In this document: positions 18,181 to 33,278 of the stretch, one piece after another
Position numbering within the stretch: position 1 is the stretch's first letter
Layout: every line of letters begins with the position of its first letter
Source of the DNA: a virus
Virus record (IMG/VR): IMGVR_UViG_3300021375_000091
Location: 1-34,944 of that record
DNA: 34,944 bases
Direction: 5' to 3' (one strand)
Made by a program: the position numbers and the translations under genes
Notes under the pieces: model-generated
Seen by the model: the letters and a program-made list of their open reading frames with translations, nothing else
What the model was told of the DNA's origin: nothing
Databases searched by the model: none

Positions 18181-20442
18181 ATGGCTGAGAGTTTTAGCGA
18201 TATAATGAGTAATTACAAAGATATGAGCATTGAAGAGCTTGGTGGTTCTTTATTGCAACGACAATCTGACCAAGCAGCAGCAGCAGCTAAACGAGCTAAG
18301 AAACAAGACAGAGTTCAACAAGCTTTAGCACTTATGCTTACTGGTCAAGCTATTTTTAAAGGTGCTTATAATAAAAGGTCTAAAGAATTAGATGACCGTA
18401 TGGCTTTTGATGAAATTAATAATGGAGCTCAAGCTAAACAAATGTCAGGTCTTTCTAATGTTATAAGTGTTATTCCTGATAATTTTCATACTGATAAAAG
18501 CACAGAAGAAAGAGCTAATTTATTTTTAACAGAAAAAGGTGGTTTTTATAAAGCTCAATTAGAAAATAAATGGAGTCCTTATATTGATAGTCAAATTAAA
18601 ATTTCCTATCCTAATTTAGAAGAATTTAAAACATCAAATCCTGCTGCATATTCAACTCTTAAAAAAGAAGCCTTACAACAACTATCTATAGATTTATTTT
18701 CAAAAGATGATACAGGCGTAGAAAAATATAAAAGATTTGAAAACGAACTTAGAGATATTTTTAAAAATGAAGATGGCTATGCTGATATGGATAGGTTAGA
18801 ATTATTAAGAGCAGGTCTTGGTTTAGATGAACATCGTTTAACTAGGCTTGAATCTCAAAACTATGAAATCTTAAGAAGAGAATTAAGAAATCGTTCTAAT
18901 ATAATTGGTGGTGTAAAAGATATGTTTCAACATATTGGTAATAGAGCAGAATCTAAAGGTGGCATAAATTTATTTAAAAACTTAACAGTTGATAAATTAC
19001 AACCTTCTCGTTTAGATACTGTGTTAGATGAGTTAGATTTTAAAGGCATGGTAGTTCCTATAGTTGACAAAGCTCTTGCTAGAATTAGAGTAAGCCCTAC
19101 TCGATATAAAAATGCAGTTGATTCTTTACCTCAAGAAACAAGAGATAGAGTAACTCAAGCTTATACTACTATGAAAAGTAAAATTGTAGATAAAGAATTA
19201 GCAAAGATAGACTCTAGAGGTTTATTATCTACAAATTATGGATTTTTTGCTAGGTCAGACGATACTATATTATCTGAATATAAATGGGACCATTTAACAA
19301 ATGTATTTGATGCTAATGAACCATTAAGAAATGAAATGTTAAAAGGTGCTACAGCATTATCATTACGTTTTAATGATGACCCAAATTTTGCAATGGATTT
19401 GTATAAAGAAGTTGAAGATGATTCAGAAAAAATAAATCAATTTAAAGTAGCAATACAAGACGAAGAATTTAGAAATCAATTTTCTATTGCTATGGTTATG
19501 AAAGCTGGATTTACAGACGATGAGTTTGGTTTTGATGGTGGTTATAGATATATAGAACCAAATATTGATGAAAAAAATATTTATCAAGAAGGATATAACC
19601 CAGAAAAATCAAGAGAATCTTTAGATTTAGTGTTGGGTGAAGGTATAGATGTAAGTCGTAAAGGATTTATTGCTACTAAAGAATATAACAATTTTTCTAA
19701 GAAAGGAAAAATTAAAAATTATGATATGATTGTAGAACAAATTTTAACAACAGATGTGTCAGAAACAGAAAGACAAAAAACTTTAGATTTCTTCTTTGAC
19801 TCTATTCCTAATCCACGAGGATTAAATCAACAAGAATATATAATGACTATGGAGTCTGAAATACGTCAAAGTAAACAAGTTGGAAAAGAAATTTTATTTA
19901 AATCTCGTAATGTTGGAAGAGATGTAACAATGGCAGCTATTAATGCTGTTACAGGATTGTCTGAAAATGAATCACCAGAATATGTAAAAAATTTACGATT
20001 GTTTATGAGAGACATAGCAAGAGTAGAATCTGATTTTGGAGAAAATGAAAATACTTTTTCTAATCCAAACTCGTCAGCTACTGGAATTTTTCAAGTAAAA
20101 GCTGATAAAGCAATGACTGAGGTTCAACGTAGAATTAAAGAACCTAATAGCTTTCAAAATTTAAAAACATATAACAAACAATTAAAAGAATCGTTAGGTA
20201 TAGATTTATCTACAGCTACTGCCGAAGATTTAGAAACTCCAATTTATTCAGCAGCTTTTGCAAGAGGTTATTTAATGACAGTAACAAAACCTATACCTAC
20301 TGACCCTCAAGCTCAAGCAAACTATTGGAGAAATAATTACAACAAAGGAGATAATTATTCGGTATCAGATTATCTAATAAAAAATAGATATTTTATAGAT
20401 ACGATGCAAGAAAAACTTGGAAATTTATTTGGAGAAGACTAA
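18181..20442 (+). CDS. Internal virion protein with C-terminal lytic transglycosylase-like domain
   Basis: A 753-residue protein, mostly charged helix, with an Ala/Lys-rich helix near residues 30-60. Residues about 605-745 resemble the lysozyme-like soluble lytic transglycosylase fold: IARVESDFG places a candidate catalytic Glu at 616, followed by NPNSSATGIFQVKADKAMTE, the usual SxAxGxxQ-type motif, and further on a YWRNNYNKG segment. Such domains in virion proteins cut a local hole in peptidoglycan during genome entry, as T7 gp16 does. It starts two bases after the previous stop, and its own stop overlaps the next ATG. The enzyme call is moderate because the motif is divergent. Confidence 0.65.
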   Translation: MAESFSDIMSNYKDMSIEELGGSLLQRQSDQAAAAAKRAKKQDRVQQALALMLTGQAIFKGAYNKRSKELDDRMAFDEINNGAQAKQMSGLSNVISVIPDNFHTDKSTEERANLFLTEKGGFYKAQLENKWSPYIDSQIKISYPNLEEFKTSNPAAYSTLKKEALQQLSIDLFSKDDTGVEKYKRFENELRDIFKNEDGYADMDRLELLRAGLGLDEHRLTRLESQNYEILRRELRNRSNIIGGVKDMFQHIGNRAESKGGINLFKNLTVDKLQPSRLDTVLDELDFKGMVVPIVDKALARIRVSPTRYKNAVDSLPQETRDRVTQAYTTMKSKIVDKELAKIDSRGLLSTNYGFFARSDDTILSEYKWDHLTNVFDANEPLRNEMLKGATALSLRFNDDPNFAMDLYKEVEDDSEKINQFKVAIQDEEFRNQFSIAMVMKAGFTDDEFGFDGGYRYIEPNIDEKNIYQEGYNPEKSRESLDLVLGEGIDVSRKGFIATKEYNNFSKKGKIKNYDMIVEQILTTDVSETERQKTLDFFFDSIPNPRGLNQQEYIMTMESEIRQSKQVGKEILFKSRNVGRDVTMAAINAVTGLSENESPEYVKNLRLFMRDIARVESDFGENENTFSNPNSSATGIFQVKADKAMTEVQRRIKEPNSFQNLKTYNKQLKESLGIDLSTATAEDLETPIYSAAFARGYLMTVTKPIPTDPQAQANYWRNNYNKGDNYSVSDYLIKNRYFIDTMQEKLGNLFGED

Positions 20443-23400
20443 TGCCTAATCAACTTGATGCATTTATGGATGCACTAGAAGAAGAGGAAAAAAAGAAACA
20501 ACAAGCCCTTCAAGAAATTAAAGTTCCAGAAGCTGTAGTTCAACCTATTCCTAATCAAACATCTAGTAAAACTGAACTTTATGATTCGACTATAGGTAAA
20601 GAGTTTAGTAATCCTAATTATAAACCTCTTTTTCAAAATACAGGTAAAAAAAGTTTAAGCGAATTAGAAGAAAATCCAGAGTTTGCTAAACGAGCTACTA
20701 GATTTTTACAAAGTATTAACGAAAACGATAATATTTTTGAATACTTACGAGATGCAGATTACAGTTTAAGTTCTGCTGCTATTCGTGCAGGTCAAACAAA
20801 TAGTTGGGATGAACAACAAATTGATGATTATGTATATTTAAAACAACAATTTGATAATGCTGAACTAAAAGGATTTAAAGAAAGATTTACTGCTGTTAAA
20901 GATATTGGTATAGATATATTAGGTGACCCTTTTAATATATTAGCAGCTTTATTTGCTATTCCAACTGGAGGAACTTCTTTAGCAACTAGAGGAGCTTTAG
21001 GAACTGCAGCTCAAGCTGGTTTAAAAAGATTAAGTGCTCAACAAATTGCAAAACGACAATCACTTAAAAAAGCTAAAACTTTAAGAGATGTAAAACAAAC
21101 AGCTAAAATTGGAGCTTTGGAAGGAGCTGCTATTGAAATGCCTCATGGTTATTTTCTTTCAGATATTGATGTTGATTTAGGTTTACGAGATGAAATAGAT
21201 GCTTCTATGATTGCTGGTCGAACACTTTTAGGTGCAGGTATTGGTGGGGCTGCCGGTGGCGTAGCTGGAGCTGTTACTGGTTTGTATGGTAATAGATATT
21301 TAACAAAAGAATTTAAGTATACAAACGAAACTGCTATTGATGATATTGCTGAATCTCAAACTAGAAAAGAAATTAATGATAATCAATTTTTAGAAGATAG
21401 TTTAGAACATAAAAGTAAAAATAATTTATATAAAATATTATCTAATACTCAAGGAAAACCCACTACTAAATTTTTAGCATGGGCAGAAAAATCAAAACCT
21501 TTACAAGAACTTCTGAAAAAATTTAGATACGATTATGATTCTGGAATGTTTAAAGAAGGATATCAAGGTGTTAAAGAAAAATCATATGGGTTAGCTTTAG
21601 GCGAAAGACAAGGCAAATATTTGTATGGTTTAGCTAAAGGATTAAATGTTTTATATAGAGTAGGATTTAGAGGTAAAATAATAGGAGAACAAAATGACCA
21701 ATTATTTACTTTACTATCTGACAAATCTATAAATTTTAAAAATATTGATAACTTAAAAAATAAAAATTATTCTAATAAGTTTGGAATAAATTTTAATATT
21801 AATGATGATATTATTAGTTCGTATAAAGGAGTTAAAACTCAAATTGATGATGCTTTTGAAGAAGGAAGGTCAGTAGGTTTATTTGGAACTAATATTAAAC
21901 AAGGTATGGGTTATTTACCTAGACTTTTTAAGTATGATATTCTTAACGACAAACGAGGAAAATTTGAACAACTTTTAATTAAGGCAGGTCATGCTGACCC
22001 ACTTAATGATATTGATGAAATTACAATTAAAACATCTGATGGTGTAAAGGTTAAAGGAATAAAAGAAGATGCAGTAGGAATTGACCAAGATGTTTTTGGT
22101 AGAGATTTTTTAAAAGATGCTGAAGGTAATTTAGATAAAGCTAAAGAACTTAAAGCTACTCAAATTGTAGACGATATGTTAGAGTATCGTTGGGTTCCAT
22201 TTGAATTAAGAAGTAAAAGAAAAGCTGGTTCGTCTGGTAGCTTTATGCAACAAAGAAGGTTTTCAAATCTTGAAAATAATGAAATACAAGAGTTTATTGA
22301 AACTGATGTTCAAACAATTTTAGAAGATTATTTTGTTAATATTTCTCAAGCTATAGAACGTACTAGATTTTTTGGTAAAAGTACAGACAATTTTAATAGT
22401 AAACAAATACAACCGGTTGTTGATGATTTAATAAATAAAGGTTTATCTAAAAAACAAGCTGAAGATGTTAGAAAGGGTTTATTGCTTATGCATAGCCGAG
22501 TAACTGGAATTGAAACTTTTTCTGAAAGTACATTAAAAAGAAACAATGCTGCAAGAGGAACTGCAGATTGGTTAAAATTATCACAACAAATGGCTCATTT
22601 ACCTTGGGCTACTTTATCAAGTTTAACTGAACCTTTAATATTATTAACAAGAGTAGGGGCTACAGATGTTCCTTTTACTATTACACAAATTGGTAAGGCT
22701 ATTGTAAAAGAAGGTGGTAGTGTTGTTGATAGAAGTTTAAAAGCTCTTTATAGATTACGTGGTGGTAAAACTAAAAATGTAAAAGATTTAGATGATGAAA
22801 CTTGGGGAGAACTATACAAAACAGGACTTGCTTTAGAACAAGCTGTACAAGAAAGAATTGAAGGTTTAGCTGGTGAAGGATTATATGGTCCAACTGCAAA
22901 AACAATGCAACAAGCATTTTTTAAAGCAAATTTATTAACACAATGGACAAAAGCTGTACAATTAGCTTCTTTTACTACAGGTAAAAGATTAATAAAAACA
23001 AACGCTAGACAGTTAGCTACAGGTAAAACTGTATTAGGAAGAAAATTAACTGAAAAAAATAAAAAATATTTAACTCAACAATTAAATGATTTAGGTATTG
23101 ATAAAACTAAAGCAGTTAATTGGTATAATAAATCATTAAGAAATAATAAATTTGATGATAGCCTTGCAAAAAAACAAGATTTTTATAGAGAAGATTTAAC
23201 ATCTGGTGCTAATAGATTTACAAAAGAAATTATTTTAAATCCAAGTACTGCAGAAGCTAATAGACCTTTGTGGTTTTCTACTCCTGCTGCTCAGTTGTTA
23301 GTACAGTTTGCTGGATATCCAACAGTTTTTAATAATACTATTTTAAGAAGATTTGCAAATGAATTTTATAATTATCCAGTACAAACTATTCCAAAATTAA

Positions 23401-23975
23401 TTCCAACTGCTTTGTTAATGACTGCAGTAGCTCATGTTGGAAACACAATTAGAAGTCAAGGCAATAATTATTATGATTATGAAACAGAAGAGCCAAAACC
23501 AGAAGGAGAAATGATTGGAGAAGCTTTACGTAGATGGGGAGGAACTGGACCTTTTGATTATGCTTATCGATTTACAGAAAATGAAGACCGTAATGCTGGG
23601 CAATTAACTTCTGCTTTAAAAACTTTTGCTGGTCCTTTACCTCAAGATGTAATTGATGGAATTTCATTTAGAAAAGGAATACCAGAAATTGCTGTAACAA
23701 ATATTCCGGGATATAGTATATTACCATATGAAACACGAAAAGATATTAGAAAATTTGGTAGAGATTTAACTAAAGAACCTAAAAAAGAAAAAGAAGATTA
23801 TAAATCATTATTTTCTAAAGGTGGTTTAGTTTATGATGTACCTAAAGTAGGCAATGAACCAGATGAAATTAAAATGCGAGGAGTAAACGCTACTTACAAT
23901 GAAGTAGCTGGGGTTATTCTTAAAGATGAAGAGGATAGAGGCATTACAAAACAAATGGAGGATTTGTTAAAATGA
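20442..23975 (+). CDS. Very large internal virion / ejection protein
   Basis: A 1177-residue protein whose ATG overlaps the upstream stop by one base. It is basic and mainly helical. Hydrophobic Gly/Ala-rich segments occur near residues 160-195 (DPFNILAALFAIPTGG) and 258-285 (GAGIGGAAGGVAGAVTGLYG), and another near 980 (PKLIPTALLMTAVAHVG). They could form a membrane channel. Size, position after the transglycosylase-domain protein and before lysozyme, and these segments fit the largest ejection protein of T7-like and marine podophages. No catalytic motif is evident. Its last four bases overlap the lysozyme gene (ATGA). Function is inferred from position and composition. Confidence 0.65.
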   Translation: MPNQLDAFMDALEEEEKKKQQALQEIKVPEAVVQPIPNQTSSKTELYDSTIGKEFSNPNYKPLFQNTGKKSLSELEENPEFAKRATRFLQSINENDNIFEYLRDADYSLSSAAIRAGQTNSWDEQQIDDYVYLKQQFDNAELKGFKERFTAVKDIGIDILGDPFNILAALFAIPTGGTSLATRGALGTAAQAGLKRLSAQQIAKRQSLKKAKTLRDVKQTAKIGALEGAAIEMPHGYFLSDIDVDLGLRDEIDASMIAGRTLLGAGIGGAAGGVAGAVTGLYGNRYLTKEFKYTNETAIDDIAESQTRKEINDNQFLEDSLEHKSKNNLYKILSNTQGKPTTKFLAWAEKSKPLQELLKKFRYDYDSGMFKEGYQGVKEKSYGLALGERQGKYLYGLAKGLNVLYRVGFRGKIIGEQNDQLFTLLSDKSINFKNIDNLKNKNYSNKFGINFNINDDIISSYKGVKTQIDDAFEEGRSVGLFGTNIKQGMGYLPRLFKYDILNDKRGKFEQLLIKAGHADPLNDIDEITIKTSDGVKVKGIKEDAVGIDQDVFGRDFLKDAEGNLDKAKELKATQIVDDMLEYRWVPFELRSKRKAGSSGSFMQQRRFSNLENNEIQEFIETDVQTILEDYFVNISQAIERTRFFGKSTDNFNSKQIQPVVDDLINKGLSKKQAEDVRKGLLLMHSRVTGIETFSESTLKRNNAARGTADWLKLSQQMAHLPWATLSSLTEPLILLTRVGATDVPFTITQIGKAIVKEGGSVVDRSLKALYRLRGGKTKNVKDLDDETWGELYKTGLALEQAVQERIEGLAGEGLYGPTAKTMQQAFFKANLLTQWTKAVQLASFTTGKRLIKTNARQLATGKTVLGRKLTEKNKKYLTQQLNDLGIDKTKAVNWYNKSLRNNKFDDSLAKKQDFYREDLTSGANRFTKEIILNPSTAEANRPLWFSTPAAQLLVQFAGYPTVFNNTILRRFANEFYNYPVQTIPKLIPTALLMTAVAHVGNTIRSQGNNYYDYETEEPKPEGEMIGEALRRWGGTGPFDYAYRFTENEDRNAGQLTSALKTFAGPLPQDVIDGISFRKGIPEIAVTNIPGYSILPYETRKDIRKFGRDLTKEPKKEKEDYKSLFSKGGLVYDVPKVGNEPDEIKMRGVNATYNEVAGVILKDEEDRGITKQMEDLLK

Positions 23976-24421
23976 ATGTAGAAGAATGCAAAGCACAAAT
24001 AAAAAGACACGAAGGCGAGGTCCTTGAAATCTACGAAGATAGTTTAGGATATAAGACTTTAGGTATAGGACATTTATGTCAGCCTCAAGACCCTGAATAT
24101 AATTGGGAGGTAGGAACGAAAGTATCACAAGAAGTTGTAGATATGTATTACGAAGAAGATTTTAAAAAACATTACATAGAAGCTAAACATGTATTTGGAA
24201 TAAACGAAGACTGGGATGGATTACCAGAAGACATACAACATGTTATAGTTAATATGTGTTTTAATCTTGGTGGTTCTAGACTTGCCAAATTTAAAAATAT
24301 GTTAAGAGCTTGTAGAAGACATGACTGGAAAGAAATGGCTGTACAAATGGAAGACAGTCGTTGGTTTGGTCAAGTTGGTAGACGTAGTAAAGAATTACAA
24401 GATATGGTATTAGGAGTATGA
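23972..24421 (+). CDS. Endolysin, T4-type lysozyme (GH24)
   Basis: A 149-residue muramidase that cuts the glycan strands of peptidoglycan at lysis. The active-site block aligns with T4 lysozyme: IKRHEG (Glu14, equivalent to T4 Glu11), IYEDSLGYKTLGIGH (Asp23 and Thr29, equivalent to Asp20 and Thr26). Later VNMCFNLGGSRLAKFKNML and WKEMAVQMEDSRWFGQVGRR match the conserved C-terminal lobe. Length is close to T4 lysozyme (164). There is no signal peptide or N-terminal membrane anchor, so release depends on a holin, and a 3-TM holin is encoded next. The start overlaps the ejection-protein gene by four bases. Confidence 0.92.
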   Translation: MNVEECKAQIKRHEGEVLEIYEDSLGYKTLGIGHLCQPQDPEYNWEVGTKVSQEVVDMYYEEDFKKHYIEAKHVFGINEDWDGLPEDIQHVIVNMCFNLGGSRLAKFKNMLRACRRHDWKEMAVQMEDSRWFGQVGRRSKELQDMVLGV

Positions 24422-24422
24422 A

Positions 24423-24896
24423 ATGAAAGCATTATTAAAAAACATAGTTGGAGCTGTTGCACCTACATTAGGGACTGCATTAGGTGGACCAATGGGAGGC
24501 ATGGCAGCTAATATGATAGCTGATGTCTTAGGATGTCCTAACAATCCAAAGGCAATAGAGAAGGCTGTAGCAGAAGCTACTCCTGAACAAATGCTAGAAC
24601 TTAAAAAAGCTGAGAATGATTTTGAAGTACAGATGAAAGAGCTTGACGTTGATGTATTTAAATTAGAAGTAGCTGATGGTCAAGATGCTAGAAATAAATT
24701 TAGTAAAGATTGGACAGCTCGTATTATGGGTATAGCTGTAGTCGGTGGATTTATGGGTTATATATTTTTAGTTACCCTTCAACCACCAGAGCAGAACTCA
24801 GAAGCTTTAATTAACTTAGTATTAGGTTATCTTGGTGGTCTTGCTAGTGCTGTTATTAGCTTTTACTTTGGTGCTTCAAACACCAACAAAGACTAA
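24423..24896 (+). CDS. Holin of the 3-TM (gene-transfer-agent type) family
   Basis: A 157-residue membrane protein. The N-terminal Gly/Ala-rich segment (AVAPTLGTALGGPMGGMAAN) and the pair of C-terminal helices (IMGIAVVGGFMGYIFLVTL and INLVLGYLGGLASAVISFYF) match the three-transmembrane holin family first linked to gene transfer agents. A charged helix with KKAENDFEVQMKELDVD and DGQDARNKFSKDWTARI links them and is characteristic of the family. It follows the lysozyme by one base, giving a compact lysis cassette. It would form the inner-membrane lesion that lets the lysozyme through. Its stop overlaps the next small gene (TAATG). Confidence 0.82.
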   Translation: MKALLKNIVGAVAPTLGTALGGPMGGMAANMIADVLGCPNNPKAIEKAVAEATPEQMLELKKAENDFEVQMKELDVDVFKLEVADGQDARNKFSKDWTARIMGIAVVGGFMGYIFLVTLQPPEQNSEALINLVLGYLGGLASAVISFYFGASNTNKD

Positions 24897-25033
24897 TGGA
24901 AGACGGTGGAAGTCATTGGTACGAGGACAAGAAGAAGGAAGAGACAGAAGAAGAAACAACACATCCTAAAGGCTGGTATTGGTGTCCAGAACGTAGGGAT
25001 TATTTTAGGTACAAAGAATGGCTGAAGTTATAA
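24896..25033 (+). CDS. Small Trp/Tyr-rich acidic protein in the lysis block
   Basis: A 45-residue ORF whose ATG overlaps the holin stop by one base (TAATG) and whose end overlaps the next gene by 16 bases. The sequence begins MEDGGSHWYEDKKKEETEEE and ends with HPKGWYWCPERRDYFRYKEW then LKL. The first half is acidic and the second aromatic and basic. Tight packing between two genes in different frames and the absence of any other explanation for this gap argue that it is translated. It has no membrane helix and no known family that I recognise. Function is unknown. Confidence 0.55.
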   Translation: MEDGGSHWYEDKKKEETEEETTHPKGWYWCPERRDYFRYKEWLKL

Positions 25034-25368
25034 GTTTAATAAACGAGGTAGGCTTTCCAATCGCAGCAGCGTTAGGGTTAGGTTTGTTTATATGGAAACT
25101 TATCAACAGAATTATTGATGGTATGGAAACAAAGCTAGATACTTTAGATGATAAAGTACAAGCGAGTTTAGATACGATGGAAGAACGAGTATCAACTAAA
25201 CTAGATAGTCAATATGGTATCATAGTTAGTTTAATAGACAGAGTAAGAGCAATGGATAATCAAAGTATTAGACAGGATGTTCTACTTAAAACTTTATTAG
25301 GTACACCAAACCTTATAGAGATAGATAAGATTGCGAAGGCAGATAGAGATGACCAAAGAAAAGATTGA
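25018..25368 (+). CDS. Membrane-anchored coiled-coil protein in the lysis block
   Basis: A 116-residue protein with one N-terminal transmembrane helix (VGFPIAAALGLGLFIWKLI, about residues 11-29), then a coiled coil (MDTKLDTL-like heptads, VQASLDTMEERVSTKLD) and a short C-terminal part with LLKTLLGTPNLIEID and a charged end. Similar small EVGFPIA-type membrane proteins are found beside lysis genes in marine phages. It could be an accessory holin, antiholin or spanin-like factor, but it lacks a lipobox or signal-anchor pair typical of spanins. It overlaps the small genes on both sides, so the whole block is likely one translation unit. Confidence 0.65.
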   Translation: MAEVISLINEVGFPIAAALGLGLFIWKLINRIIDGMETKLDTLDDKVQASLDTMEERVSTKLDSQYGIIVSLIDRVRAMDNQSIRQDVLLKTLLGTPNLIEIDKIAKADRDDQRKD

Positions 25369-25472: not shown

Positions 25473-25967
25473 ATGAAATTAATACCTACATTTAAAAGCG
25501 ACAAGGCTATTAGAAATTGCAAGTTTTGCATATTCTTTTGGTCTATGTTAATTATATTTTTTTCTGTAGAAAGTTTAGCAGATGAGATGGGTTTTAAATT
25601 TAAGTCACCTTCGTTTAATGGCAACAATACTAGCTCACATTATCTTACAATAGAAAACCAAGAGTTCAATCGTAAGATGACTATTAAAGAAGAGTTAAAA
25701 GCTTTACAAGAACAAATTAAAAGAGATAAAGAAAATACAACACTTGCAAGATTCATAAGAAACTTGGAGTCTCGTATTTATGCACAACTGTCAAGACAAT
25801 TAGTAGAGAATTTATTTGGGGAGAATCCTAGTACAGAAGGTACTATAGAACTTGAAGGGAATACCATTTCTTACACAAGTGATGGTGATATAATAACACT
25901 TACAATTACGGATGCAGATGGAAATGTCACGGTTATTCAGTTGCCTATTGGTAGTTTTACTTTCTAG
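25473..25967 (+). CDS. csgF: CsgF-like curli assembly protein
   Basis: A 164-residue secreted protein. The signal peptide has a long N-region and hydrophobic core (FFWSMLIIFFSVESLA) with likely cleavage near residue 37. The mature start MGFKFKSPSFNGNN matches the CsgF signature (FxFxNPxFGGN in E. coli), the segment that inserts into the CsgG pore. The central helix (LESRIYAQLSRQLVENLF) and the beta end (ITDADGNVTVIQLPIGSFTF) also parallel CsgF. In bacteria CsgF sits at the cell surface and couples curlin secretion to nucleation. Here it is the first gene of a five-gene accessory module and overlaps the CsgG-like gene by 56 bases. Family call is strong; activity in a phage setting is inferred. 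Confidence 0.82.
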   Translation: MKLIPTFKSDKAIRNCKFCIFFWSMLIIFFSVESLADEMGFKFKSPSFNGNNTSSHYLTIENQEFNRKMTIKEELKALQEQIKRDKENTTLARFIRNLESRIYAQLSRQLVENLFGENPSTEGTIELEGNTISYTSDGDIITLTITDADGNVTVIQLPIGSFTF

Positions 25968-26715
25968 TTGTGCAGTTATAAGTCAGAATGATGACTTAGT
26001 ATTAACAAAAAAAATACAGTCTCCTTCTACTATAGAGCTACAATCAGAAACATTAAGAAATTTACCAGCAGCTAAAGTACAGCCTACTATAGCTATATAT
26101 CCTAATAGCTTTAAAGATTTAACAGGGCAACGAAGAAGTAATAGTACTTTTGCTTTATTTAGTACAGCTATTACTCAAGCTCCAGAAGCTTTTTTAATTA
26201 GAGCTTTTAAACACACATCCGGTGGAAAGTTTTTTAGAGTTGTAGAACGTGTAGGTTTAGATGACCTTACAAAAGAAAGACAACTTATTAGAACAACTCG
26301 CAAAGAGTTTGAAGAAGATAACAAATTAAAACCTCTGCTTTTTGCAGGGTTGTTAGTTCAGGGTGGAGTAGTTTCGTATGAAGCTAATTTAAAATCTGGA
26401 GGATTGGGTGCTCGTTATTTAGGGATAGGTAATAGCAAACAATACAGAGAAGATACAGTTACAATATCATTACGATTAGTTTCTGTATCAACTGGTGAAG
26501 TGTTAATGGAAACTTTAGTAACTAAAAGCATTTTATCAACAAGTATTTCTCAAGATATATTTCGTTTTATTGAACAGCAAACAGAGCTAGTAGAAATAGA
26601 AGGTGGTGTAGCTGAGAATGAAAGTGTTTCTATTGCTTTACAAAAATCAATAGAGACAGGAGTGATGAATATTATAAACATAGGAATAGATAGAGGCTAT
26701 TGGGAATATGAATAA
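25912..26715 (+). CDS. csgG: CsgG-like outer-membrane secretion pore lipoprotein
   Basis: A 267-residue protein with a lipoprotein signal (CLLVVLLSSC, lipidated Cys20). Met3 and Met5 are alternative starts; all lie inside the CsgF-like gene. Signatures of CsgG are clear: FKDLTGQ, LFSTAITQAPEAFLIRAFK, VERVGLDDLTKERQLIR, YEANLKSGGLGARYLGIG (156-173), LRLVSVSTGEVL and IETGVMNIINIGIDRGYW. CsgG forms a nine-subunit outer-membrane channel for unfolded curlin. The Phe of the pore constriction (E. coli Phe56) appears kept as Phe83, but the positions of Tyr51 and Asn55 seem to be Ser or Asn and Leu, with one extra residue nearby. The protein stops right after the RGYW motif and lacks the extra tail of E. 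coli CsgG. Confidence 0.9.
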   Translation: MQMEMSRLFSCLLVVLLSSCAVISQNDDLVLTKKIQSPSTIELQSETLRNLPAAKVQPTIAIYPNSFKDLTGQRRSNSTFALFSTAITQAPEAFLIRAFKHTSGGKFFRVVERVGLDDLTKERQLIRTTRKEFEEDNKLKPLLFAGLLVQGGVVSYEANLKSGGLGARYLGIGNSKQYREDTVTISLRLVSVSTGEVLMETLVTKSILSTSISQDIFRFIEQQTELVEIEGGVAENESVSIALQKSIETGVMNIINIGIDRGYWEYE

Positions 26716-27418
26716 AATAATACTAAGTTTTGTAGCTATTATATCAATAGGTATATACGCTGCAGATAATGAAATATATGTTGAACAATCTGGTGCAACA
26801 GCAAATCTTGATTTAGAACAACTTGGTTCTGCTAATATTATCGGAGGTTTAAATTCTGTTGCAGGAACTTTAACACCTTTTGATTTAGATGGAACAGGTA
26901 TGACATTAGACATCAATCAAATTGGTGATACTAATAAGTTTTTAGGAGATATTCTTGCTGATAGTTTGACAGGTTTCTTTGAGTTTGATGGAGACAGTAA
27001 TAGTTTCACAATTCAAGTAGACCCAACAAACACATACGGAGCAGATAGTTCTAACTTAAATGTTGATGTAACTGGAAGTACTAACACTTTTACGCTTGAC
27101 TTAGCAACCAGTTCTATGGCTAGTAATACAGACCTTGATTGGATAATCAATGGTTCAGGAAACCAACTAGACTTTGATATAGATTATGATGGTGGTACAA
27201 GTTATGTAGATGTGGATGGTGATAGCAACACAGTAAGCTTTGATGGACAAGGCTATGCAGGTGGTTACTTTTACTTAGACCAGACAGGAAGTTCTAGAAC
27301 ATTTAACATACAACAACAGAGTACATTAGATAATGATTGGCTTAAGATACTTTCTACTGGCAGTAATGGTACTGTCTGTGTCATTCAAAACGATGGGGGA
27401 ACAGCAGTCGGTTGCTAA
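26708..27418 (+). CDS. Secreted curlin-like repeat protein (candidate CsgG/CsgF substrate)
   Basis: A 236-residue protein with a clean Sec signal (IILSFVAIISIGIYAA, cleavage near 18-19). The mature part has about nine strand-turn-strand units with alternating hydrophobics around G-x-x-N, such as EQSGATANLDL, EQLGSANIIGG, NQIGDTNKFLG, DGDSNSFTIQV, TGSTNTFTLDL, NGSGNQLDFDI, DGDSNTVSFDG and DQTGSSRTFNI. This is the curlin repeat style (QxGxxN), with Gln in four units only. It is acidic and lacks Cys apart from two near the C-terminus (224, 236) that could form a disulfide. The start overlaps the CsgG-like gene by eight bases. It is probably the exported fibre or surface protein. It could instead be a non-polymerising beta-solenoid. 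Confidence 0.7.
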   Translation: MNKIILSFVAIISIGIYAADNEIYVEQSGATANLDLEQLGSANIIGGLNSVAGTLTPFDLDGTGMTLDINQIGDTNKFLGDILADSLTGFFEFDGDSNSFTIQVDPTNTYGADSSNLNVDVTGSTNTFTLDLATSSMASNTDLDWIINGSGNQLDFDIDYDGGTSYVDVDGDSNTVSFDGQGYAGGYFYLDQTGSSRTFNIQQQSTLDNDWLKILSTGSNGTVCVIQNDGGTAVGC

Positions 27419-28442
27419 TATTGGCAACATAACTGAGCTGAACGGAACAGGCAGAGTTGTAAGAGACCAAGCCTACAAAGCTTCATTAACTTTTGACATA
27501 AATAGTTTTGATAATGTCCAGACTTCTAATGGGAGAATGGGCATTACTTTTTTAGATGACAGTCAAGTTCGTTTGACTGAACACTCTCAACTTATAATTG
27601 ATGAGTTTATCTATGACCCTGACCCATCTAAATCTAAGATGGCTCTACAGTTTGCGAGTGGTACTGCAAGATTTATCACAGGAAAACTCGCAACTATAGA
27701 TAAAGAAAATATATTTATAAAAACTCCAAGTGCTACGATAGGTATTCGTGGTACAGATTTTACTGTGACTGTAGACGAACTAGGTCGCAGTTTAGTTATC
27801 TTATTACCTGACAACGATGGTCTACCTAGTGGGGAGATTGTAGTTGCTACAGCTATGGGAGAGGTTGTACTTAACAAGCCTTACCAAGCTACAACAGTTT
27901 CTATGTTTGAAACTAAACCCACTCCCCCAGTTATCTTAGATTTAACTTTAGAGTTAATAGATAACATGTTGATTGTAAGTAAACCAAAGGAGAACACCGT
28001 TGCCACAGGACAAAACGGAAATAGTAATACACGTAATATTCTTGATACTGACTATCTCGCTTTTGACGATTTAGAACAAGACTATTTAGCAGGAGATGAT
28101 TTAGAGTTTACAGAGTTAGATATAAACTATCTTGATGTAAACTTCTTAGAAGATTTATTAAATATCATCGAAGACATAAACGAACTAGACACTACAAAAA
28201 CACTATTAAGAACTGACATAGATTTAAAAGGTACATCAGTTGGATTTGATTCTAACACACAAATAAATACTTTTGTAACTGATAACATGATTACCTTTTA
28301 TAAAACTTTAGAAGATACTGTAAGATTAGATTTAGATAAGGGTAATGCATATACTGTTATTCTTATTCAGGGTGGAAAAAGCACTCAGATAGTTGTGAAT
28401 GGTGGGGGTAACTCTACCATAAAAATAACTCAAGGAGATTAA
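27333..28442 (+). CDS. Secreted FecR-domain protein with curlin-like C-terminal repeats
   Basis: A 369-residue exported protein. The signal sequence (YFLLAVMVLSVSF) is encoded within the last 86 bases of the curlin-like gene in another frame. Residues about 50-165 are a FecR domain with GRMGITFLDDSQVRLTEHSQ and the hallmark IGIRGTDF (136-143). Here it is not a sigma-factor regulator fusion: there is no cytoplasmic anti-sigma helix. Residues 238-285 are an acidic run with DYLAFDDLEQDYLAGDDLE. The end (about 343-369) carries two curlin-like units, VILIQGGKSTQIVV and NGGGNSTIKITQ. FecR-domain proteins are often encoded beside CHASE2-cyclases in bacteria, as here. It may link the secreted fibre to the sensor cyclase. 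Confidence 0.8.
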   Translation: MIGLRYFLLAVMVLSVSFKTMGEQQSVANIGNITELNGTGRVVRDQAYKASLTFDINSFDNVQTSNGRMGITFLDDSQVRLTEHSQLIIDEFIYDPDPSKSKMALQFASGTARFITGKLATIDKENIFIKTPSATIGIRGTDFTVTVDELGRSLVILLPDNDGLPSGEIVVATAMGEVVLNKPYQATTVSMFETKPTPPVILDLTLELIDNMLIVSKPKENTVATGQNGNSNTRNILDTDYLAFDDLEQDYLAGDDLEFTELDINYLDVNFLEDLLNIIEDINELDTTKTLLRTDIDLKGTSVGFDSNTQINTFVTDNMITFYKTLEDTVRLDLDKGNAYTVILIQGGKSTQIVVNGGGNSTIKITQGD

Positions 28443-28443
28443 T

Positions 28444-30192
28444 ATGAAATGGTCCTTTCCTTTACTTGCACTACTCTGTGTACCTTTACTTTTTAACTCT
28501 GTACCTTTAGAAATTCTTAGGCTCAAGACCTTTGATGCCTTAATTGAAACCCCTATTCCTTCAGGGCATTTCACAATACTAAACATTACCGAAGAAGACC
28601 TCAACAAAGAAGGAGGTTATCCTCTGCCCAGACAAAGACTTGCAGAAATACATCAAGACATTATAGATGCTGGAGCTTATGGAGTAGGATGGGTTATGTT
28701 GTTTCCACATCCTGATAGACTCGGTGGTGATGCTGAGTTTGCTTTAGAGCTTTCAAAGTCTGCAAGTGTTATAGCTATGCCAGAGATAGACAATGGCATT
28801 TACCCAAAGACAGTAGGTACTGTGATTAAAGGACCTATAGTATCTTTACCAAAAGCTCAAGGATTTTTACAGAACATTGACATCTTAAAAGAGTCAGCTA
28901 ATCAAGGTGCTGTGTCTGCTCCAGTAGATGTAGATAATCTTGTTAGACAAATACCTTTATTACAACAAACAGATAGTGGGTGGGTTGCTTCATTTGGAAC
29001 GGAAGTTTTAAAAATACTAGGAGGTGGTCAAACTTATCAGATTGTAACTAATCAAAATGGAATTGAACAGATTAGAGTACGAGGCATCCCACCTACTTCA
29101 ACAGATAGTCTTGGTCGTAAATGGATTAGTTGGGTAGATACACCACAAATAACTTTAGATGAATTACATAAAGCAGAATCTACATTTGTATTTGTAGGAT
29201 TTACAGCTAAAGGAATATCACCACAACTTGCAACTCCTTCCGGACTTTTAGAGCCACATAAAATTCAAGCAGCTCTTGCAGAAAGTATGTTAATAGATAG
29301 TCCAATGATTCCAGATTATAGATTGGTAGTAGAGCTAGGACTATTATGCCTCTCAGGGCTTCTTACAGCCCTTGTAATCGCTTATTCTGGTGTGACCCTT
29401 GGCGTAGTATTAGTTGGGTTTTTGTTTGCTCTAATCGCATATCTTGGACAGTACTTAATTAGCATAAATTATTTGATAGATGTGACTTGGAGTTTAATTT
29501 CTATGGTTTTAATTTCTACTCAACAATTTTGGTTAAACTTTAGAACTCAATACAAACTTAGACAACAAATTAAAAAACAATTTGAACACTACCTCGACCC
29601 AAGACAGGTTGCTGCACTTGCAAAAAATCCAGAGCTTTTAAAGTTAGGAGGAGATAGACGAAGATGTACGTTTTTATTTACAGACGTTAGAGGCTTTACA
29701 AGTTTATCAGAAAAACTAGAACCTGAAGAAGTCACAGAAATAATGAACAAGACCCTGACGATTCAATCCAATGCTGTTAAAAAACATGGTGGTATGGTAG
29801 ATAAGTATATTGGAGATGCAATGATGGCAATCTTTAATGCACCAATAGACCTGCCTAATCACGAAGAGAAAGCTGTACTAACTGCATTAGATATCATTGA
29901 AGATATGAAAGAAGCCGACTTAGGAATCCAAATCGGCATAGGGATTAACACCGGAGAAGCTGTTGTAGGAAACATGGGAAGCGAAACAAGGTTTGATTAC
30001 TCAGCCATAGGTGACTGTGTAAATCTTGCAGCTCGTTTAGAAAGTGCTACTAAAGAAGCAGGTAAAAACCTACTAATAGGCGAATCTACAATAGGAAAGA
30101 TAACTATTCCTGTTGAAGTTCTTATGCCTATTAGAGTTAAGGGTAAAGAAAAAGCTATAAATATCTATACACCTATTGGTCCATATATCTAG
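28444..30192 (+). CDS. CHASE2-sensor class III nucleotidyl cyclase (probable adenylate cyclase)
   Basis: A 582-residue membrane protein with AAGGAG before the start. Residues 1-18 form a membrane helix. Residues about 20-285 are a CHASE2 sensor outside the inner membrane (LRLKTFDALIETPIPSGHF, then PLPRQRLAEI). Three membrane helices follow (about 293-360). The cyclase domain lies at about 395-575: LFTDVRGFTSLSE (metal Asp414), VDKYIGDAMMAIF (Lys454 for the base, metal Asp458), RFDYSAIGDCVNLAARLE (Ser520, Asn527, Arg531). All catalytic residues are present; Lys454 with Ser520 suggests ATP and a class IIIb-like site. It would make cAMP in response to a periplasmic signal. It is the last gene of the module, and its end overlaps a convergent gene by 20 bases. 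Confidence 0.9.
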   Translation: MKWSFPLLALLCVPLLFNSVPLEILRLKTFDALIETPIPSGHFTILNITEEDLNKEGGYPLPRQRLAEIHQDIIDAGAYGVGWVMLFPHPDRLGGDAEFALELSKSASVIAMPEIDNGIYPKTVGTVIKGPIVSLPKAQGFLQNIDILKESANQGAVSAPVDVDNLVRQIPLLQQTDSGWVASFGTEVLKILGGGQTYQIVTNQNGIEQIRVRGIPPTSTDSLGRKWISWVDTPQITLDELHKAESTFVFVGFTAKGISPQLATPSGLLEPHKIQAALAESMLIDSPMIPDYRLVVELGLLCLSGLLTALVIAYSGVTLGVVLVGFLFALIAYLGQYLISINYLIDVTWSLISMVLISTQQFWLNFRTQYKLRQQIKKQFEHYLDPRQVAALAKNPELLKLGGDRRRCTFLFTDVRGFTSLSEKLEPEEVTEIMNKTLTIQSNAVKKHGGMVDKYIGDAMMAIFNAPIDLPNHEEKAVLTALDIIEDMKEADLGIQIGIGINTGEAVVGNMGSETRFDYSAIGDCVNLAARLESATKEAGKNLLIGESTIGKITIPVEVLMPIRVKGKEKAINIYTPIGPYI

Positions 30193-30403
30193 CATTTAAG
30201 TTTGCTTCTATATGACTATGAATCTCATCTAGTTTAGCTGTCGCTTCTCGTACTATAGTATGTAATGTACTATACTCGGTCTGAGTCATAAACTTTTGAA
30301 GTTCTTTAATATCTGTTGATACTCTTTCTGTAATCAACTTCCCTGTTTTATCATATAGTAACTTGTAGCCAAGAAGCACAGCTTCCTTTCTCTTGGTTTT
30401 CAT
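30173..30403 (-). CDS. Small charged helical protein, function unknown
   Basis: A 76-residue protein at the end of the minus-strand cluster, beginning one base after the NrdB stop and converging with the cyclase gene (20-base overlap of 3' ends). It opens with MKTKRKEAVLLGYKLLYDKT and continues as a charged helix (TQTEYSTLHTIVREATAKL, then DEIHSHIEANLN). It has no Cys, no membrane segment and no motif that I recognise. Tight spacing to NrdB suggests co-translation. It is probably real, but function is unknown. Confidence 0.5.
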   Translation of the reverse strand: MKTKRKEAVLLGYKLLYDKTGKLITERVSTDIKELQKFMTQTEYSTLHTIVREATAKLDEIHSHIEANLNARYMDQ

Positions 30404-30404
30404 T

Positions 30405-31373
30405 TTATAATCCTGTAAAAGTTATTGTATCTTGTCTTCCTCGTAACCCAGCTTTCATATAAGTAGTAGCTCTACCTTCAAAGAAGTTCTGATGCTCTAC
30501 TCCCATGACCTCGTCTATCCATCCTAGTGGGTTTTCTCTTTGGTCGAAGTTTGTTTTCAATCCTAACTGTAGCAGTCTTCTATCTGCTATGTATCTATTG
30601 TATGCGTACATATCTTTCTTAGTTAATCCTTTCATGTCTCCCATGTCAAATACTAAATCAAGAAACTTATCTTCTAATTGTACCATATGTCTACATATTT
30701 CGTATAGTTCTTTTTTGAAATCATCTGTCCAGATTTCTATGTTCTCTTGTATAAACTCTCTAAATAACTTTGTCATTGCTTCAACATGCATTGACTCATC
30801 ACGAATAGAGTAAGTAACTATCTGACCCATACCTTTCATCTTTCCAAATCTAGGGAAGTTAAGTAGTATAGCAAAGCTAGAGAACAACTGTAACCCTTCT
30901 GTAAAGGCTGAGTAGACTGCAAGTGTCTTAGCTATGGTTTCTTTCTTAGCTCGGCTCGGTTTAAACTTACCGACATAGTCGTGCTTGTCTGCCATCTCTT
31001 CATACTCAGCAAAAGCTTTGTACTCTAGTTCAGGCATTCCAACTGTATCAAGTAGTAAGCTGTACGCATGTTGATGTATAGACTCCATGTTAGCAAAAGA
31101 ACCCATCATCATTCTAGCTTCTGGTTTTTTAAAGATAGGCATATACTTATCTATATATCCGGAGGCTACATCTACATCTGATTGTGTAAACAATCTAAAT
31201 ATTTGTGTAAGTAAATTCTTTTCTTTTGGCTCAAGTTCTTGCCAGTCTTTTACATCTGTGTGTAAAGGTACAGACTCAGGCATCCAATGCATTTGATTTT
31301 GTAACACATAGTAATCAAACATCCAAGGGTACTCAAATGGTTTGTAATAATCTCTCGTTCCTAATAAGCTCAT
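30405..31373 (-). CDS. nrdB: Ribonucleotide reductase class Ia small subunit
   Basis: A 322-residue beta subunit that holds the di-iron/tyrosyl radical. The ligand set is visible: TQSDVDVA (Asp66), MESIHQHAYS (Glu97, His100, radical Tyr104), FTEGLQLFSSF (Glu159), IRDESMHVEAM (Glu193, His196). Retention of Tyr104 points to a class Ia enzyme rather than a Tyr-less form. It has GGAGAACTT before the ATG and follows NrdA after nine bases, so the subunits are made together. It provides deoxynucleotides for phage DNA replication by reducing ribonucleotides, as in many marine phages. The C-terminal tail (QDTITFTGL) presumably docks on NrdA. Confidence 0.95.
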   Translation of the reverse strand: MSLLGTRDYYKPFEYPWMFDYYVLQNQMHWMPESVPLHTDVKDWQELEPKEKNLLTQIFRLFTQSDVDVASGYIDKYMPIFKKPEARMMMGSFANMESIHQHAYSLLLDTVGMPELEYKAFAEYEEMADKHDYVGKFKPSRAKKETIAKTLAVYSAFTEGLQLFSSFAILLNFPRFGKMKGMGQIVTYSIRDESMHVEAMTKLFREFIQENIEIWTDDFKKELYEICRHMVQLEDKFLDLVFDMGDMKGLTKKDMYAYNRYIADRRLLQLGLKTNFDQRENPLGWIDEVMGVEHQNFFEGRATTYMKAGLRGRQDTITFTGL

Positions 31374-31382
31374 AAGTTCTCC

Positions 31383-33278
31383 TTAGCCTTCACAGGCAAT
31401 ACATTCCACATCATCGAGCCTGATGCGTGGAACTTTAACATTAATATTTTCTGCATTTCTTGCAGCGTTTGTTCTAAAGTAATATAAAGATTTTAATTTA
31501 TTCATAGCATACCAATGTACATCGTTGACATACTGCATGTATTCATCGTGTGTTTCTTGAGGCTCGGTTGCCTTTGGAAGTGTAAAGAATAAATTAACAG
31601 ACTGAGATTGACATATAAATTCTTGTCGTTTATATGCGTGTTCTACAATCCATATTTGATTTATTTCATTTGCAGTTTTAAATACTTCTTTTTCTTTGTC
31701 AGTAAGTTCTTTTACATTAGCAACAGAACCTTCGTCACCTGATATGCTCTTCCAAATTTTATTTAGTTGAGCTGGTTTTAAACCTTTAGACTTTAAAAGT
31801 TTTTCTAGGTATGGGTTCTTAACTTGGTAAGTACCTGACAAAGTTTTGTGTGTATAGACATTAGCCCTATATGGCTCGATGCTAGGGGAAGTACCACTAC
31901 AAATAATACTACTACTAGCATTAGGAGCAACAGCCAATAGATTAGCATTCCTAACCCCTTTACCATGCACATCAGGAGCTTCACCCCTTTCTTCTGCCAG
32001 TAGTTTGGTGGCTTTGGTAGCTTCTTTTTTAATATAGTTAAAGGCTTTGTGATTAAATCCCACAGCAAAGATTCCTTCAAACGGAATATTTTTAGATTGG
32101 AGGTAGGCATGAAAGCCCATTGCTCCCAAACCAAGAGACCTTTCTCTGTAAGCTGAGTAAGCTGATTTAGCATACCCTTCTTTACCTTCTTTAATGTAGT
32201 TAATAAATCTTTTAAAGTTTGCACTATATTCTCCTAATTGGTTTGTGTCTACTGCATTATCTATATAGTGCTGTAAAACATTATCAAGCATTGTTATCAA
32301 ATCATTTATAAACTCTGGTTCTTTAGACCAAGTATCAAAGTGTTCTAAGTTTACAGATGATAAGCAACAAACTGCTGTTCGTTCTTCGTTAGTAGGTAAA
32401 GTAATCTCCGAACATAAATTACTTTGTCTTATCTTAAGTCCTAAATCTTTTTGTGACTTGGGTAAAGCTTCGTTACATGTATCTATATTAACCATGTAAG
32501 GTTCACCAGTCTCAGCTCTTGCATTTATAATCTGCCACCATAAATCTCTAGCGTTAATTATCTTTACAGCTTCGTTAGTCTTAGGGTCTATAAGTCTCCA
32601 GTCTTCATCTTCTTTAACAGCATTTAAAAAATCATTAGTTATATTAACACCATTGTGTAAGTTTAAACACTTCCTGTTTATATCTCCACCGGATTCTTTA
32701 CGCATGTTTACAAACTCTTCTATCTCTGGGTGACTGATATCCATGTAAGCTGCATAGCTTCCTCGTCTTGTAGTGCCTTGATTAAAGGCTAACATCTGAG
32801 AATCAACTACATGCATAAAGGGGATTGACCCAGTAGAACGACTACCATGAGTAGTAGATATACCGTTACTCCTAACATCTCCCCAATATCCACCGATGCC
32901 TCCACCTGAACTCGCCAACCATATGTTCTCGTCATAATGAGCAGATAGCCCATTCCTGCTGTCAGGAACATAATTAAGGAAGCAACTGATAGGAAGCCCA
33001 CGAGTTGTTCCTCCGTTGCTAAGTATAGGAGTGCTGAACATGAACCAACAATCGGAGCTGTAGTTATAAAGTCTTTGAGCAAGTTCATAGTCGGTCTCCC
33101 CTTTGTAGGTGGCTGCAAATACAGAAGCTCTTGCGAATGCTTCTTGTGCGTGTGTTTCGTTTTCCCAAAAATATCTATCCTTTAAAGTATCAATACTAAA
33201 TTTGTCTAAATTATTTTCTTTATCATAGTCTATACAAATACCAAGATAAGGTTTCTGTCCAATTTTATCTTCAATCAT
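31383..33278 (-). CDS. nrdA: Ribonucleotide reductase class Ia large subunit
   Basis: A 631-residue alpha subunit. LPISCFLN (Cys99) and TAVCCLSSVN (Cys304/305) supply the redox pair, and SNLCSEITLP the Asn287, Cys289, Glu291 triad for radical chemistry. LKSLYYFRT carries the radical-transfer tyrosines, and the CxxC tail (CIACEG, Cys626/629) regenerates the site. The protein starts near the catalytic barrel; the N-terminal ATP cone of cellular NrdA (about 90-100 residues) is missing, so dATP feedback inhibition is probably absent. That is common in phage enzymes. It overlaps the upstream DUF3310-like gene by eight bases and is co-transcribed with nrdB. Confidence 0.95.
   Translation of the reverse strand: MIEDKIGQKPYLGICIDYDKENNLDKFSIDTLKDRYFWENETHAQEAFARASVFAATYKGETDYELAQRLYNYSSDCWFMFSTPILSNGGTTRGLPISCFLNYVPDSRNGLSAHYDENIWLASSGGGIGGYWGDVRSNGISTTHGSRSTGSIPFMHVVDSQMLAFNQGTTRRGSYAAYMDISHPEIEEFVNMRKESGGDINRKCLNLHNGVNITNDFLNAVKEDEDWRLIDPKTNEAVKIINARDLWWQIINARAETGEPYMVNIDTCNEALPKSQKDLGLKIRQSNLCSEITLPTNEERTAVCCLSSVNLEHFDTWSKEPEFINDLITMLDNVLQHYIDNAVDTNQLGEYSANFKRFINYIKEGKEGYAKSAYSAYRERSLGLGAMGFHAYLQSKNIPFEGIFAVGFNHKAFNYIKKEATKATKLLAEERGEAPDVHGKGVRNANLLAVAPNASSSIICSGTSPSIEPYRANVYTHKTLSGTYQVKNPYLEKLLKSKGLKPAQLNKIWKSISGDEGSVANVKELTDKEKEVFKTANEINQIWIVEHAYKRQEFICQSQSVNLFFTLPKATEPQETHDEYMQYVNDVHWYAMNKLKSLYYFRTNAARNAENINVKVPRIRLDDVECIACEG

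Follow-up and report, generated by a model that had tools for sequence, protein, structure and literature searches.

A CHASE2 adenylate cyclase gene in a phage curli cassette

The DNA analysed here is a stretch of 34,944 nucleotides from a virus (IMG/VR record IMGVR_UViG_3300021375_000091; hereafter the window). On its plus strand, an ATG-to-stop ORF (28444–30192) encodes a 582-aa protein predicted to be an adenylate cyclase of class III (IIIb-type) with a CHASE2 sensor. Pfam profiles matched both parts, namely CHASE2 (PF05226; E = 3.8e-24) over residues 9–305 and profile positions 2–255 of 257, and Guanylate_cyc (PF00211; E = 1.5e-19) over residues 407–570. An AlphaFold2 model (mean pLDDT 85.7) laid the protein out as CHASE2 (~20–292), two long helices (293–340 and 348–380) and a cyclase domain (404–578). 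Together with the PF05226 profile, it indicated a full CHASE2 domain flanked by membrane helices at both borders and folding as an extracytoplasmic alpha/beta domain. The solved folds closest to the model were class III enzymes: P. aeruginosa CyaB (3r5g), Cya2 (2w01) and Spirulina CyaC (1wc1).

Alignment with CyaB located the whole residue set of a class III adenylate cyclase: the metal residues D414 and D458, the base-recognition residues K454 and S520, and the transition-state residues N527 and R531. Across 79 full-length viral homologues, with identities down to 32%, D414, D458, K454 and R531 were invariant and N527 was conserved in 78; position 520 varied (serine in 47, threonine in 31, aspartate in one), and the serine of the window, a conservative departure from the Thr or Asp normally seen there, is a small qualification. 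Identity as a guanylate cyclase is disfavoured because Lys454 is invariant. With a dN/dS of 0.14–0.19, the gene is under purifying selection. The preliminary description of this DNA had proposed a complete membrane sensor-cyclase with all catalytic residues intact on a phage genome, and both points stand, given the full-length ORF, the two Pfam domains, the model and the many viral contigs described below.

The cyclase is the final gene of a plus-strand cassette. CsgF (25473–25967; PF10614, E = 3.4e-20) precedes the outer-membrane curli pore CsgG (25912–26715, start possibly at 25924; PF03783, E = 3.5e-47), whose lipoprotein cysteine is invariant across the CsgG alignment; by Pfam, these two supply the pore and the CsgF that curli, or type VIII, secretion requires. 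They are followed by a CsgA/B-like protein of 236 aa (26708–27418) with a signal peptide and curlin-type QxGxxN repeats. It had no Pfam match; 170 such repeats were observed against 9.4 expected across 82 homologues, the Q, G and N columns of the alignment were invariant, and by these sequence features it qualifies as the likely secreted subunit of such a system. The fourth gene (27333–28442) encodes a secreted FecR-domain protein (PF04773, E = 1.2e-12; phrog_37870, E = 2e-78). Some of the cassette genes overlap, and a single base separates FecR from the cyclase. Convergent, minus-strand ribonucleotide reductase (RNR) genes (beta, 30405–31373; alpha, 31383–33278) form the right-hand border, with a possible short minus-strand ORF at 30195–30403 between the cyclase and RNR beta.

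The FecR-domain protein begins with a single hydrophobic, signal-like helix (residues 2–20) immediately before the FecR beta domain, which is followed by a low-confidence linker and C-terminal strands; in its model (mean pLDDT 58.9), the FecR domain (~29–190) was well modelled and the rest too poor for use. FecR anti-sigma regulators of the iron citrate type combine a cytoplasmic sigma-binding N-terminus, a central TM helix and a periplasmic FecR domain. Here PF04773 alone was detected, and we rejected this identity. We likewise rejected the C-terminus as a curlin repeat, the window's copy having no full motif and a profile comparison giving a probability of 9%; in the homologues, this part carries QxGxxN in excess (40 versus 4.1).

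Upstream of csgF, again on the plus strand, lies a phage lysozyme (23972–24421; PF00959, E = 1.1e-8) whose matches to endolysin and tail lysozyme families in PHROG fit either a lysis gene or a tail lysozyme. Next come u24423 (24423–24896; phrog_1544, no assigned function), which travels with the lysozyme and the third gene, and that gene itself, termed HOL (25018–25368), encoding a holin-like small membrane/coiled-coil protein. HOL homologues matched phrog_18771 (unknown) in 17 of 18 cases and, weakly, phrog_4898 (holin) in four of 18, which, together with the context, suggests a holin function. Its position and copy number indicate that HOL is probably the "histidine kinase" gene of an earlier report on phage curli clusters (PMC9599517). 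Searches of the HOL proteins (80–116 aa) revealed no HisKA or HATPase domain, even when E values as high as 1 were allowed, and a histidine kinase identity was discarded.

The capsid protein and RNR of the window were closest to those of Pelagibacter phage HTVC115P (60–61%), and its structural DNA to HTVC103P/104P/115P. Because of these affinities, we place the virus among the HMO-2011/HTVC115P-like podophages, with a host that, judging from its relatives, is probably SAR11. HTVC115P itself has no curli cassette. Within the window, the large internal virion/structural genes (18181–24000) have a G+C of 0.29–0.31, markedly below the 0.33–0.41 elsewhere. The structural region of HTVC115P includes gp46 (L084:18511–18960), annotated as a toxin-activating lysine acyltransferase.

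The cassette is inherited nearly all-or-none behind a holin-like gene

Relatives of the cyclase occurred in at least 597 marine viral contigs and in nine of 50,697 isolate phage records, six of which matched over most of the query. The preliminary description had called such an enzyme rare in phages and proposed looking for it in related ones: it is indeed rare among isolates but not among marine viral contigs, and the isolates that carry it include Pelagibacter phage HTVC008M and Methylophilales phage Melnitz. Wherever the flanks sufficed (in the best 80 of the at least 597 loci plus HTVC008M and Melnitz), the gene order was HOL-CsgF-CsgG-curlin-FecR-cyclase. HOL always preceded csgF in phage loci where both were visible, and bacterial cassettes were without HOL. 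The cyclase is separable from the cassette, because in five loci (L034–L037, L044) it is convergent to the FecR/curli genes, though still adjacent with a gap of at most ~600 bases, and because it is missing from L085, a locus found via CsgG.

Inheritance of the cassette proved nearly all-or-none. A search of viral contigs with one HOL protein yielded 34 loci with 5 kb or more of sequence beyond HOL on the downstream side, on contigs partly shared with the cyclase set; 30 had all five cassette genes, four had none and not one had a part. Two phage architectures were found, lysozyme-u24423-HOL-cassette-RNR, as in the window, and HOL-cassette-u24423-lysozyme. Ten cassette-less loci read HOL-u24423-lysozyme and are the natural empty site of the cassette; HOL also adjoins the lysozyme in the cassette-less phages L201, L219, L222 and L229. 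From the empty sites and the two architectures it follows that HOL and the lysozyme belong to the lysis region proper of the phage and that the mobile part consists of the five cassette genes. Split ORFs of csgG and the cyclase in L046 (7468–8326 and 10001–11737) and a shortened csgG in L185 (4653–5455) reflect either frameshifts or assembly errors.

Bacterial counterparts

Two Caulobacteraceae MAG contigs (L087, L088) carry csgF-csgG-curlin-curlin-FecR-CHASE2 cyclase, flanked in L087 by ordinary chromosomal genes such as an amidohydrolase and an acyl-CoA dehydrogenase. These cassettes therefore correct the published statement that FecR and the cyclase are outside bacterial T8SS (curli) operons (PMC9599517). 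CsgF is rare in these bacteria (over the cut-off in 4 of 289 Alphaproteobacteria and in 15 of 199 genomes of the Caulobacteraceae group), and none of 16 such bacterial csgFG loci had FecR or the cyclase nearby. In contrast, ten of 20 alphaproteobacterial CHASE2 cyclase loci, all lacking csg genes, had a FecR-domain gene within ~5 kb (one-sided exact p ~0.0007 against 0 of 16), a rate that is not unbiased, as the 20 were the top CHASE2 matches. FecR and CHASE2 cyclases therefore look like a general pair. Several phage cassette contigs (L085, L086, L089, L090, L091, L093) had been binned in Maricaulis, Pelagibacter, Flavobacteriaceae and Rhodobacteraceae MAGs, an apparent mis-binning.

In a phylogeny against bacterial CHASE2 cyclases, a comparison proposed at the outset, the viral and L087/L088 enzymes grouped in a single clade (SH-aLRT 100) that excluded 29 other alphaproteobacterial CHASE2 proteins. 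A quick cyclase tree placed L087/L088 between viral groups (88% SH-aLRT), and the CsgG tree had a weak base; transfer between phages and Caulobacteraceae may have run in either direction.

cAMP receivers in presumed hosts and phages

The cNMP-binding domain PF00027 was found in only five of 118 Pelagibacteraceae genomes, and several of these matches were long fusion ORFs or came from likely contaminated bins. PF00211 exceeded the cut-off solely in two Pelagibacteraceae MAGs that contain phage cassette contigs. Judged by these searches, the presumed hosts appear mostly to lack class III cyclases and cNMP-binding domains of their own. A phage-encoded cAMP receptor was also sought, and PF00027 was absent from all 24 cassette phage records, which include the whole HTVC008M and Melnitz genomes and are otherwise mostly fragments. 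Hence, no ordinary cAMP receiver is visible in either partner, which poses a pointed question, namely which molecule would read cAMP where the usual receptor is mostly missing from the hosts.

A possible signalling arm of an envelope or fibre module

By a narrow preference, we read the cyclase as the signalling arm of a late-expressed phage curli-type envelope/fibre module that reports the state of the periplasm as cAMP. The module would be expressed together with the late and lysis genes of the phage. CsgG-CsgF would form an outer-membrane pore through which the curlin-repeat protein would be exported, and the secreted FecR-domain protein would pair with the CHASE2 domain in the periplasm; late in infection, the cyclase would respond to the condition of the periplasm, pore or fibre by making cAMP in the cytoplasm. 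This reading builds on the gene identities (the curlin repeats among them), the intact catalytic residues, the purifying selection, the fixed order, the nearly all-or-none inheritance, the place behind the holin-like gene, the bacterial FecR/CHASE2-cyclase neighbourhood and the Caulobacteraceae cassettes, whose cyclases share a clade with the viral ones. It predicts that the enzyme is active as an adenylate cyclase, that FecR serves it as ligand or partner, that fibres form and that the module acts late. Such outside-in signalling has a precedent in S. meliloti, where the CHASE2 cyclases CyaD1, CyaD2 and CyaK respond to an outside protein signal via the outer-membrane barrel NsrA (PMC13001267). 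The reading is weighed down by the lack of a visible cAMP receiver, by the separability of the cyclase and by Melnitz cultures, in which the authors saw no cell clumping (PMC9004378). An initial suggestion that the sensor might follow fibre assembly gains from CsgF, CsgG and the curlin-repeat protein, neighbours the first reading had not identified, but the cyclase is no lone sensor and belongs to a published cassette (PMC9599517). The rise of cAMP during infection that was also suggested at first would take place in presumed hosts that mostly lack class III cyclases and cNMP-binding domains. Stretched into a self-contained phage circuit, in which the envelope- or fibre-sensing cyclase would raise cAMP in hosts without cAMP signalling of their own and an unrecognised receptor would time late events, for instance lysis or surface remodelling, the idea becomes rather unlikely.

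The position of the cassette makes lysis control the main rival, although we give it only a small chance. The pore and the CHASE2 cyclase would monitor the envelope, and lysis would be delayed or triggered by cAMP, or else by the pore, much as in lysis inhibition. HOL is followed immediately by the cassette, which lies between HOL and u24423/lysozyme in one architecture and behind lysozyme-u24423-HOL in the other; the empty sites consist of just these lysis-region genes, T4-like phages have two HOL copies before csgF, and a lysis role of CsgG has been proposed on other grounds (PMC9004378). Against this, a place in the late lysis region may confer merely late expression, HOL is a putative holin, and neither a cAMP receptor nor a cAMP-responsive lysis protein is known here, PF00027 being rare in the presumed hosts and absent from the phage records.

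More doubtful still is a passenger role, in which the cyclase would have come along with a bacterial curli operon and since fallen out of use. The missing receptor, the cyclase-free L085 and the split cyclase of L046 would suit it; catalytic residues that stay invariant at identities as low as 32%, the low dN/dS and the retention of the cyclase in all HOL-anchored cassettes for which the sequence reaches far enough argue against it. Class III cyclases are signal makers in Pycsar, and a phage cyclase product might in principle block or confuse a nucleotide-based host defence of the Pycsar or CBASS kind. This seems very improbable, as a membrane CHASE2 sensor with curli neighbours and a FecR partner is ill-suited to supplying a soluble decoy, and Pfam/PHROG annotation of the window placed no defence gene beside the cyclase. 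A host-phage assembly chimera at the right end, which the preliminary description had raised as a way for its reading to fail, has nothing in its favour and is ruled out by the independent contigs with matching gene order and similarly arranged flanking phage RNR, and by the isolated phages HTVC008M and Melnitz.

Comparison with known systems

The E. coli curli system consists of CsgBAC and CsgDEFG. The window has CsgG, CsgF and curlin repeats in common with it; CsgE, CsgD and CsgC were not recognised, and FecR and a cyclase are added. An amyloid fibre on the cell is a prediction from these genes. The S. meliloti enzymes share the combination of CHASE2 and class III cyclase and take up their outside signal through an outer-membrane protein, but they act via the receptor Clr (PMC13001267), a counterpart of which was not seen here. 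The Caulobacteraceae cassettes contain the module as in the window but in a bacterial chromosomal setting, without HOL, with two curlin genes before FecR and at higher G+C.

Among phages, HTVC008M and Melnitz (GenBank; PMC7029224, PMC9004378) carry the same genes, including a CHASE2 cyclase of 32–36% identity. They differ from the window in a second curlin gene between FecR and the cyclase, in two HOL copies and in their T4-like genomes. Melnitz has been said to be without csgA/csgB (PMC9004378); its cassette contains two curlin-repeat proteins, in agreement with the GenBank annotation. The T8SS cluster described in HTVC023P-type podophages and pelagimyophages (PMC9599517) has CsgF, CsgG, a CsgA/B-like protein, FecR and adenylate cyclase in identical order; by capsid protein, RNR and structural DNA, the window is instead a member of the HMO-2011/HTVC103P/HTVC115P-like lineage, and that report names neither CHASE2 nor a holin and calls the gene before csgF a histidine kinase. 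Since the cassette is annotated in HTVC008M and Melnitz and described in that report, our find is mainly known. In the literature covered by our incomplete search, we met no description of the cassette in HMO-2011-like phages or of CHASE2 by name.

What is new is the cassette in the HMO-2011/HTVC115P-like podophage lineage, the identification of the published cyclase's sensor as CHASE2, the "none or all five" occurrence behind a holin-like gene (30/4/0), the holin-like appearance of the gene before csgF, probably the published histidine kinase, the two Caulobacteraceae contigs with FecR and a CHASE2 cyclase in a curli operon, and the lack of cNMP-binding domains in 113 of 118 Pelagibacteraceae genomes and all 24 cassette phage records. 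A published phage curli cassette is thereby tied to a CHASE2 sensor and to the phage lysis region, with empty sites that show it moving as a unit and with indications of a bacterial version, and the cultured relatives HTVC008M and Melnitz make the cAMP question testable.
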